This document shows positions 6,779-30,715 of a stretch of 32,862 bases of DNA, one piece after another; the first letter of the stretch is position 1; each line of letters opens with the position of its first letter. Origin of the DNA: an uncultured Verrucomicrobiota bacterium (lineage in GTDB: Bacteria; Verrucomicrobiota; Verrucomicrobiia; Verrucomicrobiales; Akkermansiaceae); the NCBI GenBank assembly GCA_937867415.1, contig CALMKO010000027.1, forward strand, positions 1 through 32,862. Direction: 5' to 3'. The notes below the pieces were generated by a model, which was given only the letters and a program-made list of their open reading frames with translations, was not told the DNA's origin and searched no databases. A program made the translations under genes and the position numbers.

Positions 6779-7872
6779 CGTGGCGGAAGAAGCGGGAGAT
6801 TCGGATCAAAATCGAGCGGAAGGGTATCCTGAAACTCCGGCAACATCGGCTCCCCCGGATTCGCGGCGGGGCCGTTGGAAATTCTTGCCGCAAGATCGCG
6901 GGGCCAAGCCTGCACATCAAGCACCTTACCCTGATAGATGAGCGATACGACTTGGCCGTAGTAGGTTCGTTCACCAAACAGATGCTCGGTTTGTGAATCC
7001 TGGTTGGGAATGAGATAAGTCATGCGTAAGTTTTCCTCACTTCCAATCCAGTCGAAAGGAAGCGATATCCATTTTTCAGACACCCAGGATTTGTCTTCCA
7101 ATTGCACGATCTCGCCTCTGGAGTTGCGGTTGAAAAAGCTTACCGACACCGCAAGCTCCGCGACGTTGATTTGTTCGCCGGGAGCCCTCTGCACGGGTAT
7201 GGTCAGAATCACGCGCTGCCCGGCGGCATCGTTGGGATCTTTGAAAATCCGGACCCGCCCGAGAGAGAGCTTGCCGAGCATGGCATCGGGTTGCTCGAAA
7301 CCGTCCCGCAACTTCCCTGCCGCAGGTTCATAAAGCGATCCGGCACCCGAGACCCCCATTTGAAAGACTTTCTCGAAATGGGCGGCGGCCGTGTCATAGA
7401 CGCCCATTTGTTCGTGGACCAAGCCGAGCTCGTAATGGACGTTTGGATCGTCTGGAGATTGGGTGAGGGCTTCTTCAAGTTTCATGATCGCCAGCCCCAT
7501 GTCCCCCGCGACGCGGGCTTGGCGGGCCTCGGTTACCATGCGTTCCGATTTCGGATCACCGATCTTAGGGGTGGCCAACGGCGTGGGTGGCGGCAGAGGC
7601 AACGACGCCGCCGGCGGCGGCAGCGGCGCAGGAGGCCGGGAAACGATGGAAGAAGCGGCCGGAGCCGCCTCGTCAACAGGCACCCGAACCGCAACGAGTT
7701 TGGGCACCTCCTTGATGATCGTCCGCACTTCGCGGGATTCCTCAAAGCGGGTTGCCAGGGCCATCCCTGCAACCAGCAGCTGCGCAAAAGCAACAAGAGC
7801 CAACATCCAACAGGAAATGGCAAACACGGGAAGGGTGGCTTTTGGCGGCGAAGATGGGCTTTTTAGCTGCAC
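6775..7872 (-). CDS. Membrane-anchored TPR protein with proline-rich linker
   Basis: 365 aa; N-terminal TM, Pro-rich stretch, TPR-like ...DPNVHYELGLVHEQMGVYDTAAAHFEKVFQMG; 4-bp overlap with the downstream kinase/FGE-like gene. Confidence 0.7.
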   Translation of the reverse strand: MQLKSPSSPPKATLPVFAISCWMLALVAFAQLLVAGMALATRFEESREVRTIIKEVPKLVAVRVPVDEAAPAASSIVSRPPAPLPPPAASLPLPPPTPLATPKIGDPKSERMVTEARQARVAGDMGLAIMKLEEALTQSPDDPNVHYELGLVHEQMGVYDTAAAHFEKVFQMGVSGAGSLYEPAAGKLRDGFEQPDAMLGKLSLGRVRIFKDPNDAAGQRVILTIPVQRAPGEQINVAELAVSVSFFNRNSRGEIVQLEDKSWVSEKWISLPFDWIGSEENLRMTYLIPNQDSQTEHLFGERTYYGQVVSLIYQGKVLDVQAWPRDLAARISNGPAANPGEPMLPEFQDTLPLDFDPNLPLLPPR

Positions 7873-7917
7873 GTGCGAAACGTGTGATTCCTCCTCGTTT
7901 TTGTCAAATATCTCTAC

Positions 7918-9975
7918 TTAATCGAATGAAATCGCTCCGAACAGTGCTTTGAGGTAGCCGGCGGTCAGAATCTCGGGCGTGATGATCGGTTCCTGCCCGG
8001 GTGTGATCAACACATTCACCGGGATGGCCGTGCGGCCCAATTCGGCGAGTTTCGATTCGATCAGTGGATCAGGATTGGTCTTGTCCGCTTTGAACGCGAC
8101 CACCCCCCTTTCCTTCATCAGCGCAATGACCTCCTTGGAGTAGGCGGTGCGTTTGTTGACCTGGCAGGTGGCGCACCACTGAGCGGTGAAATCAATGAAA
8201 ACCGGGCTGCCTGATCCGAGCACTTCATCCACCCGTTCTTGAGACCATGGCTCCCAAATCAGCGCGGACTTCTCAGGAGGCCTGACCAACCAAAAACCAC
8301 CACCGGCGAAAAGCACAGTCAGTGCCAGCGCCACCCAGCGAACGCTCCGGGGTCGGTGCGGCAGGTTCCAACGCCCGTAAATCCAAGCCGCGACCGCGAT
8401 GCTGGTCATCCCGAATAGAGGACCCAGCATGTTTTCCAATCCGATCTGCCCCGCATAGACCCAGAACAGATATCCTGCGGTCGCAAACAGGAAAAATGAC
8501 ATCGCCTGCTTGAAACTCTCCATCCACCCGCCAGGCCTCGGGAGAAAATCAAGGAGCTTCGGAAAAATCGACAAAACCAAATACGGCAGCGACAGCCCCA
8601 TGGCCATCGCCACGAATGCTGCGAAAAACTGCACGGCGGGCAGCCCTACCGCCACACCGATCGCCGCTCCCAGAAACGGCGCCGAGCACGGCGTGGCGAC
8701 GATCGTGGCGAGCACACCCGAGAAAAACGCGCCACCCAGGCCCTGCTTGGATTGCAACGATCCGCCGACGGAAGTGGCGGATGTGCCGAGTTCAAAAAGC
8801 CCGAACATGTTCAGCGCCAGCACAAACATCAACAACATCAGCGTGAGCACCACCCAGGGCTCCTGAAGCTGGTAGCCCCAGCCTTTCGAGACACCCGAGG
8901 TCAGGCGGGCGATGAACAACACCCCGCTGAGCACGCCAAAGGAGACCAGCACACCTCCGGCGAACATCACTCCGTGAAGCGCGATCTTTTTCCGATCCGC
9001 ACCAGCCTGCTGCACGAAGCCCATGATCTTGAGCCCGATCACCGGAAAAACACAAGGCATCAGGTTCAAAATCAAGCCGCCTAACATCATGCCGCCGAGG
9101 ATCGGGAGATACTTGAAAAATGGCAGGGACTTCGGCGGCGCCGACGCAATGAGGGTTTCCGGAATTTCAAGCGGAGGAACACCCACGAGAATACCGGAAA
9201 CGGAACTTCCCTGCGGCACAGCCTTATCGAGGAAATCCATTTTGATTCGCCTTAACGTAACTACCCAGCCATCGCCGTCGCGCCGGATATCACCTCCCGC
9301 GCTGGCAGGTTGCAGGAAAGCCTCGTTCGGGATGAAGTCGCTGGGAGTGCCCTTGACGGACTCCGCGGGACTGATGCGGATCTGAACCTCGTCGCCGACC
9401 GGTTGGGCACTCACCACGAGACCCGGGACACCGCGCGCTTGATCCGCCCTCGCTTTTTCAAAAAGCGCCGAATGCGCCGGATCCATCTCCAGCTCCGCCC
9501 GCACCGGCAGCACAAGTTTCAGCACCTGCTCTTCACTGATGCAGCTATCCTTGCAGATTTGCCACTTGGCACTCGCTAACAGATCGACGGAGTCCCCCGC
9601 TTTTACACCAGCCGACACCCGTATGTCCGTCAGGAAAACCGGCGCACCTGCGTAGATGAAGCTTTTCCCGAAATAGCCATCCTTGACCTCGGGAACCGGC
9701 CATTGAATCGGTCCCGCAGTCAATCCATCTGGCAGCGTCCACTCGATGGTCGGTGGCAGCTCCACCCCCCCTGAGTTCTTGTAATAACTGTGCCATTCCG
9801 CAGGATGGACCAGCTGCAAGGCCACCGTGAATGACTTCCCCGGGGCGATCGCACTCACCTCCGACACAAGCCGTGCCTCGGAAGCCACTTTCACCCGGAC
9901 GCTTGCAACCTGGGCACTTCCAACATCAAAGCTGGCGAAGAAACAAACAAGCAGAGTGATCAGGCGATGCATCAT
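7918..9975 (-). CDS. dsbD: Thiol:disulfide interchange protein DsbD family
   Basis: 685 aa; signal peptide, N-terminal DsbD-alpha-like domain, multi-TM region (LMPCVFPVIGLKIMGF, ATPCSAPFLGAA), C-terminal thioredoxin motif WCATCQVNK. Confidence 0.92.
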   Translation of the reverse strand: MMHRLITLLVCFFASFDVGSAQVASVRVKVASEARLVSEVSAIAPGKSFTVALQLVHPAEWHSYYKNSGGVELPPTIEWTLPDGLTAGPIQWPVPEVKDGYFGKSFIYAGAPVFLTDIRVSAGVKAGDSVDLLASAKWQICKDSCISEEQVLKLVLPVRAELEMDPAHSALFEKARADQARGVPGLVVSAQPVGDEVQIRISPAESVKGTPSDFIPNEAFLQPASAGGDIRRDGDGWVVTLRRIKMDFLDKAVPQGSSVSGILVGVPPLEIPETLIASAPPKSLPFFKYLPILGGMMLGGLILNLMPCVFPVIGLKIMGFVQQAGADRKKIALHGVMFAGGVLVSFGVLSGVLFIARLTSGVSKGWGYQLQEPWVVLTLMLLMFVLALNMFGLFELGTSATSVGGSLQSKQGLGGAFFSGVLATIVATPCSAPFLGAAIGVAVGLPAVQFFAAFVAMAMGLSLPYLVLSIFPKLLDFLPRPGGWMESFKQAMSFFLFATAGYLFWVYAGQIGLENMLGPLFGMTSIAVAAWIYGRWNLPHRPRSVRWVALALTVLFAGGGFWLVRPPEKSALIWEPWSQERVDEVLGSGSPVFIDFTAQWCATCQVNKRTAYSKEVIALMKERGVVAFKADKTNPDPLIESKLAELGRTAIPVNVLITPGQEPIITPEILTAGYLKALFGAISFD

Positions 9976-25135: not shown

Positions 25136-27745
<2,610 letters not shown>

Positions 27746-27756
27746 GGTGTGGAAAG

Positions 27757-28068
27757 TTAATGGGTCATGAGGCAAGAGTCATGGGTGTCTGACTGTGGGC
27801 CGCTGGATTTGATGGAGGCGTTGAGGCGTTTGCGGAGGGATTCGACAAGTGAATCCCAGCTATAGTAACAAAACTTCTGCTTCTCCTTGTGGTGAAACCT
27901 GCCGTGGCCTTTGGAGATGTTTGCTGCGATGAAGCCAATCGAGCGCACGAACTGCATGCCGACGGTGTCCTTGGCCAGAAAGTCCCAATTGACCACCCAG
28001 CTCCAAACAATCTCCCCGCGACGCATCGCCTCGCGGTAGATTTCCAGATCGTTTAAAGATTTACTCAT
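27757..28068 (-). CDS. Four-helix-bundle protein (TIGR02436 / 23S rRNA intervening-sequence protein-like)
   Basis: MSKSLNDLEIYREAMRRGEIVWSWVVNW...TVGMQFVRSIGFIAANISKGHGRFHHKEKQKFCYYSWDSLVESL; QFVRSIGFIAANISKGHGRFHHKEKQKF is characteristic. Start 28068 is preferred over the ORF start at 28110, which would translate the flanking repeat. Confidence 0.85.
   Translation of the reverse strand: MSKSLNDLEIYREAMRRGEIVWSWVVNWDFLAKDTVGMQFVRSIGFIAANISKGHGRFHHKEKQKFCYYSWDSLVESLRKRLNASIKSSGPQSDTHDSCLMTH
27759..27786. repeat. Left heptad-repeat block AATGGGT CATGAGG CAAGAGT CATGGGT
   Basis: Four consecutive degenerate 7-mers read directly; overlaps the 3' end of the four-helix-bundle ORF. Confidence 0.6.
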
Positions 28069-28096
28069 ATCACTCGTGACCCATGACTCGTGACGG
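28069..28096. repeat. Right heptad-repeat block ATCACTC GTGACCC ATGACTC GTGACGG, inverted relative to the left block
   Basis: Four consecutive degenerate 7-mers immediately upstream of the four-helix-bundle start; 28079-28099 matches the reverse complement of 27766-27786 at 17 of 21 positions. Confidence 0.6.
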
Positions 28097-28102
28097 ATGT
28101 CA

Positions 28103-30715
<2,613 letters not shown>

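Follow-up and report, generated by a model that had tools for sequence, protein, structure and literature searches.

S23 genes between inverted heptad arrays, with a decayed copy at a gyrB-gyrA junction: candidate partners in a REPIN-RAYT-like system

Introduction

Several described systems of short bacterial repeats bear on the locus considered here. In the REPIN-RAYT (TnpA-REP) system, a single gene lies between inverted repeats and is kept in place, while cognate inverted doublets that form hairpins are dispersed in the same genome (PMC3116915). A second point of comparison is offered by the intervening sequences (IVSs) of 23S rRNA genes: in Coxiella, tandem GACAGAT heptamers precede the S23p open reading frame and the IVS carries terminal inverted repeats (PMC4990558), and it therefore fits the anatomy of the S23 elements described below. 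Dispersed tandem hepta- and octanucleotide repeats, mostly in inverted pairs, were reported from Geobacter and read as regulatory sites (PMC2700814), and dispersed TAACTGA repeats from Beggiatoaceae and cyanobacteria (PMC4679880). A literature search, mostly of papers free of subscription, returned no report linking S23 or GxxExxY genes generally to hepta- or octamer arrays or to dispersed cognate hairpins.

The S23 gene of the window and its arms

The window, that is, the whole 32.9-kb stretch of DNA analysed, carries an S23/IVP gene situated between gyrB and gyrA (Table 1) and not inside a 23S rRNA gene. Its placement between the gyrB stop and the gyrA start, with both genes on the minus strand, agrees with the first-pass annotation, and the family assigned there is upheld by two narrow passes, at 27.4 bits for TIGR02436 (cut-off 24) and 35.1 bits for PF05635 (cut-off 33.8). 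The most plausible start is the ATG at 28068, from which 103 codons run on the minus strand to 27757. The same annotation had taken the gene for a four-helix-bundle gene, but an intact bundle is not encoded: relative to the nearest gyr-junction relatives, an 81-nt in-frame deletion, established by aligning both DNA and protein to L043 and L047, has removed helix III, so that the bundle is incomplete here and complete in most of those relatives. Conserved residues are substituted as well, and the original stop codon has been lost, as a result of which the open reading frame extends into the downstream arm. The gene is a relic, a decayed copy of an S23 element. It is a PF05635 gene only and does not encode an HUH/Y1 transposase, and no reverse transcriptase, such as would accompany an Avd accessory protein of a diversity-generating retroelement, was found among the 10 window proteins scanned.

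Two blocks of degenerate heptads in inverted orientation had been noticed on either side of the gene, and they withstand comparison with dinucleotide-preserving shuffles. ACCCATGACTCGTGACGGATG (28079-28099) agrees in 17 of 21 positions with the opposite block once that block is reverse-complemented; the inverted match has a shuffle p of about 0.002, and the best 21-mer p ≤ 0.003. Period 7 is enriched on both sides (p=0.007 for 27746-27800, p=0.002 for 28066-28105), with no enrichment at periods 5, 6, 8 or 9. A self-match of 17/28 at period 7 is reached at three places only in the entire window, two of which are the arms.

Table 1. Coordinates of the features at the gyrB-gyrA junction of the window
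Feature	Position	Strand	Basis or remark
gyrA, downstream neighbour of the S23 gene	25136..27745	-	start codon at 27745
Decayed S23/IVP gene (PF05635, TIGR02436), helix III deleted, stop codon moved into the downstream arm	27757..28068	-	ORF, profile scores, alignment
Downstream (3') arm AATGGGTCATGAGGCAAGAGTCATGGGT, inverted; gene sense ACCCATG ACTCTTG CCTCATG ACCCATT	27759..27786	-	period 7 p=0.007; overlaps the extended ORF end
81-nt deletion junction, at a TCGAATCC direct repeat	27838..27846 (near)	-	TCGAATCC occurs twice in intact relatives
Upstream (5') arm ATCACTCGTGACCCATGACTCGTGACGG; gene sense GTCACGA GTCATGG GTCACGA GTGAT, period 7	28069..28096	-	period 7 p=0.002, inverted match p=0.002
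gyrB, upstream neighbour of the S23 gene	28103..30646	-	stop at 28103

Inverted arrays accompany S23 genes in many phyla

Inspection of flanks revealed degenerate tandem heptads in inverted orientation on both sides of nearly every S23 gene of the relatives, with a motif differing from element to element. An exact TCATGA, tried as a common flank motif, failed in a search of other S23 flanks because every S23 clade has its own motif, and a motif-free test of period and inversion was used instead on 121 deduplicated PF05635/TIGR02436 genes from many phyla. Period 7 (self-match at least 18/28) was found in 39% of the upstream and 50% of the downstream flanks versus 1.6% of 687 control windows, and period 8 in 17% and 19%, respectively, versus 0.7% of controls; apart from a harmonic at 14, no other period was prominent. 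The two arms matched each other in inverted orientation with a score of at least 14 in 79% of the genes, compared with 3-4% when partners were swapped between elements, and with a score of at least 20 in 54%, compared with at most 1%. ParE toxin genes of the same genomes, 26 in all, served as a negative control and had arms in no case. Heptad repeats at other TIGR02436 genes, which the first-pass annotation had proposed to look for, are thus present, mostly with period 7 and in some cases 8, and the possibility that homologues elsewhere would lack them is decisively contradicted.

Named carriers of armed S23 genes include Bacteroidota, Ignavibacteriota, Chloroflexota, Lentisphaerota, and CPR lineages. 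The 5' arm is poor in C (11-12% C, 32% G), and the genes are oriented like the adjacent genes (60:5 and 61:4 for the two sides). At 20 other S23 loci Rfam gave no match, and none of them is inside rRNA. The view that an S23 gene and its inverted arms constitute one unit, recurring in many genomes, phyla, and unrelated loci, is supported by these data. One such locus is the metK-sahH junction of an essential metabolism operon, where S23 elements of several related clades were observed (L157, L301-L304, L029, L030, L032).

The repeat motif goes with the S23 protein. In the 88 elements whose two arms are both periodic, motif similarity increases with S23 protein identity even where the flanking genes are not homologous, the mean motif cosine being 0.08 at 20-30% identity and 0.38 at 60-70% (Mantel r=0.30, p ≤ 0.001, reached by none of 999 permutations). 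The share of element pairs with the same period likewise goes from about 0.5 to 0.8 with rising identity. Since the motif tracks the S23 protein at non-homologous loci, the arms belong to the element and the protein lineage and not to the target.

The gyrB-gyrA junction among congeners

The gyrB-gyrA junction is extremely variable in the 73 congeners: about 20 are short (28-79 nt), 14 hold an S23 gene, and the rest contain relBE-like toxin-antitoxin pairs or further genes. All 14 junction S23 proteins fall into one clade (local support 96), and the S23s adjacent to it in the tree, from Ignavibacteria and Bacteroidota, likewise have GTCA-type heptads. The arms of these orthologous copies differ, from GTCATGA through GTCATTA/GTCAGCG to an 8-nt GGTTGACT type in L063, with left and right generally matched. 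Junction states (S23, empty, other) are scattered over a gyrB/gyrA protein tree that is poorly resolved, its resolution being too low for gains and losses to be counted.

The first-pass annotation had tentatively regarded the gene and its flanks as a mobile unit inserted at this junction and had suggested a comparison with empty sites. The unit does recur at unrelated loci, and empty junctions exist in many congeners; they are, however, not clean pre-insertion sites. Remnants of other genes or of heptads persist in some, heptads being kept in the S23-less junctions L130, L131, L054, and L100, and the spacers are too diverged to be aligned. Vertical descent, named beforehand as the observation that would speak against mobility if empty alleles were missing, appears to hold for the most part, yet empty alleles exist. 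As all 14 proteins form one clade, one old arrival is preferred over recent insertion, and the S23 gene at gyrB-gyrA is best explained by such an arrival, followed by decay and many losses, possibly with exchange via the gyr genes.

The junction is also a hotspot of small inserted genes in its own right (L036, L038, L039, L041, L054, L057, L096, L100, L109, L114): relBE-like toxin-antitoxin pairs, an ORF of about 1 kb ending NALSRA, and a module of about 780 nt occur there, elsewhere S23, and remnants of inserted genes persist in several "empty" junctions.

Cognate hairpins without a gene

A DNA search with the S23 element of G057 that lies between metK and sahH (names assigned by reading the flanking sequence; AGACNNN heptads) detected the element itself in some 22 of the 73 congeners. 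Many further matches covered just the array, frequently in two inverted copies separated by a few tens of bases. Three motif families, AGAC, GTCA, and GTTGA, were thereafter pattern-searched over the 73 genomes, yielding 1193, 1185, and 655 matches with a very uneven distribution; such exact-pattern counts are inflated by tandem expansions in some genomes (G059, G102), and an S23 element's own arms contribute a few matches, which is much of the total where matches are few. Among the matches listed from all these searches, close opposite-strand pairs had the order plus then minus.

Array number is associated with the cognate S23 clade. The median per genome was 15 AGAC arrays with the clade versus 0 without it (p=3e-7; absence here refers to a search scoring 8 candidates per genome), 20.5 versus 1 for GTCA (p=3.4e-5), and 30 versus 0.5 for GTTGA (p=8e-4; the list of S23 genes comprising fetched loci only). 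Five of the six non-cognate combinations were not significant, the exception being GTCA S23 with GTTGA arrays (p=0.015). When each S23-bearing genome was paired with the nearest S23-less genome by gyr identity, the former had the higher count in 14/15, 10/13, and 5/5 informative cases for the three clades. Many arrays occur without a detected cognate S23 in some genomes (G059, G037), for which the model developed below therefore needs gene loss or missing contigs.

In the 23 hairpins whose whole sequence was read, about four heptads are followed by a loop (median 41 nt) often beginning with GAAGA and then by four inverted heptads. Their left arm, with 10.8% C and 31% G, has the same composition as S23 5' arms, and geometry and polarity are alike. 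Dispersed inverted doublets of a gene-flanking repeat, as known from REPIN-RAYT systems, are found in the same genome as the gene, weakly so in that of the window (3 GTCA matches). S23 loci are common to several species, whereas hairpin sites are not: no GTTGA site was common to species, 0 of 105 locus pairs (15 loci) having homologous flanks, and the sole homologous AGAC pair consists of two S23-bearing loci. Judged from these sequences, the gene-less hairpins are the parts that look dispersed.

How arrays change was followed in the close pair G057/G105, which share the same S23 element. Its left arm has about 22 heptads in one and 4 in the other, and its right arm also differs; unit variants differ between the two arms, and units are gained or lost in 7-nt steps, independently per arm. 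The idea that one arm is copied from the opposite one was rejected on account of this independence of unit number and variants in the one pair. Arrays can grow to 20 or more units. Over about 35 kb of orthologous DNA, arrays were mostly common to both genomes, the indels being deletions within coding sequence, expanded arrays, and the insertion of two unrelated genes, with no hairpin insertion having base-precise ends or a target duplication; since no such clean insertion was seen, we infer dispersal from the distribution of the hairpins. For one element tested, no near-identical copy at a second locus was found in the 73 genomes. In G105, a 1.25-kb insertion missing from G057 lies beside the palindrome GACCAATGATTGATGCGGCCGCATCAATCATTGG (L452 around 7736-8989, G105:C175), and two other families of dispersed repeats, roughly 150 and 220 nt long and apparently unrelated to the heptads, have many 80-92% identical copies (L377:4739-4974 and 6931-7093).

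Proposed mechanism and its alternatives

Our preferred reading, to which we would assign a probability of roughly 0.6, is that S23 elements are the gene-bearing partners in a REPIN-RAYT-like system in which S23 recognises the arrays, the window holding a decayed copy. Because both adjacent genes read in the same direction, expression of S23 genes presumably comes from read-through of the host operon. The protein would then bind the tandem array cognate to it, most likely in the form of DNA, and would help an enzyme to copy or move array-bounded hairpins. To our knowledge S23 has no known catalytic site; a partner enzyme must therefore be assumed, which may belong to the host or to a third party. 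The S23 gene itself would mostly stay put, being inherited vertically and lost often, and each clade would have its own motif, with gene-less hairpins of that motif dispersed where the clade is, or recently was, present. The model predicts that an S23 protein binds the array of its own clade in preference to, and to the exclusion of, the arrays of other clades; it also predicts that removal of S23 stops hairpin turnover.

The most serious competitor holds that S23 is a nucleic-acid-binding regulator and that the paired arrays, at its own gene and elsewhere, are operators, making up a regulon and not a mobile system. Motif tracking and the cognate association would be expected equally under such a scheme, the arrays are mostly common to G057 and G105, and the paired tandem repeats of Geobacter were annotated as binding sites of a global regulator (PMC2700814). 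It sits poorly, however, with hairpins of one family at non-homologous sites across species (0 homologous pairs among the 15 GTTGA loci), with congeners ranging from 0 to over 200 copies, with expansion to 20 or more units, and with frequent loss of the S23 genes, and we consider a regulon unlikely.

Less credible still is selection of the arms for an RNA stem, which would either leave the S23 ORF looped out of the operon mRNA or be a substrate of RNase III, with no mobility involved. S23 genes do stand in sense orientation inside operons, and in the 23S IVSs, whose ends are likewise inverted, RNase III carries out the excision (PMC4990558). Yet G-U-type mismatches between arms do not exceed A-C-type ones (112 versus 131 for S23; 36 versus 46 for GxxExxY), so that recognition or upkeep at the DNA level is favoured, and a stem leaves the 7/8-nt periodicity, the cognate dispersed hairpins, and the motif tracking across loci unexplained. 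Selection on S23 arms thus probably does not act on an RNA stem. Similarly improbable is a self-contained unit whose gene and arms moved together and were recently inserted as a block at gyrB-gyrA, as filled and empty junctions alternating among congeners and related S23 genes with related arms at unrelated loci might suggest, for the junction S23s are monophyletic, the window copy is decayed, and the one element tested had no near-identical copy at a second locus in the 73 genomes.

A wider extension of the preferred REPIN-RAYT-like reading, offered tentatively and at rather less than even odds, is that S23/IVP proteins are a new kind of mobility factor, not transposases, each of which recognises a tandem 7- or 8-nt array of its own and disperses array-bounded hairpins in trans, that 23S IVSs are copies that landed in rRNA genes, and that GxxExxY nucleases form a parallel system with 8-10-nt units. 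Were this true, a family that ranks among the most frequent small proteins of environmental bacteria and is still uncharacterised would gain a function-bearing context, the long-noted hepta- and octanucleotide repeats of bacterial genomes would be explained, and the 23S rRNA intervening sequences would fall within a general element type.

Comparison with known systems

GxxExxY genes (PF13366, PDDEXK_3) resemble S23 in their inverted arrays (81% of 48 genes versus 11% with partners swapped), in their recurrence at operon junctions such as pheS-pheT, and in the occurrence of solo arrays; they differ in a unit spacing of 8-10 nt (by eye), in their motifs, and in nuclease-like conserved residues. 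They were observed at pheS-pheT and metH-like junctions in L064, L067, L070, L071, L074, L077, and others, bounded by inverted arrays with 8-10-nt spacing (e.g. CGCCAAGA, CGCAGAGG, ACAGGATTA, CCACTGAG). In 0.8 Mb of G065 that were surveyed, units with S23 or GxxExxY as cargo were encountered, beside GxxExxY-type arrays standing alone and palindromes resembling those of integrons, with no third cargo family in that stretch. A cluster of near-identical palindromes of 27-29 nt in L298 (G065:C1:2751406-2757682; TTTGGGAGTGCAGTGAGAATCACTGCTTT) has an integron-like look.

Gene-less hairpins are like MITEs in being short, dispersed inverted-repeat units devoid of genes, and unlike them in that no related autonomous transposon or target duplication was found. 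The repeats of Geobacter, Beggiatoaceae, and cyanobacteria share with S23 arrays the dispersed tandem units of 7 or 8 nt; the two reports concerned (PMC2700814, PMC4679880) make no link to S23, and the reading there is regulatory. With the IVSs of 23S rRNA, S23 elements have in common the protein family and the terminal inverted repeats around the ORF, whereas the elements described here lie between protein genes and have cognate gene-less hairpins dispersed in the genome. REPIN-RAYT shares with S23 elements the single gene between inverted repeats, the dispersed, hairpin-forming cognate doublets and, probably, a gene that is inherited in place instead of multiplying; the S23 protein is, however, a four-helix bundle and not an HUH transposase, and its arms are clade-specific tandem arrays of 7- or 8-nt units in place of single REPs, which are palindromic and carry a tetranucleotide tag.
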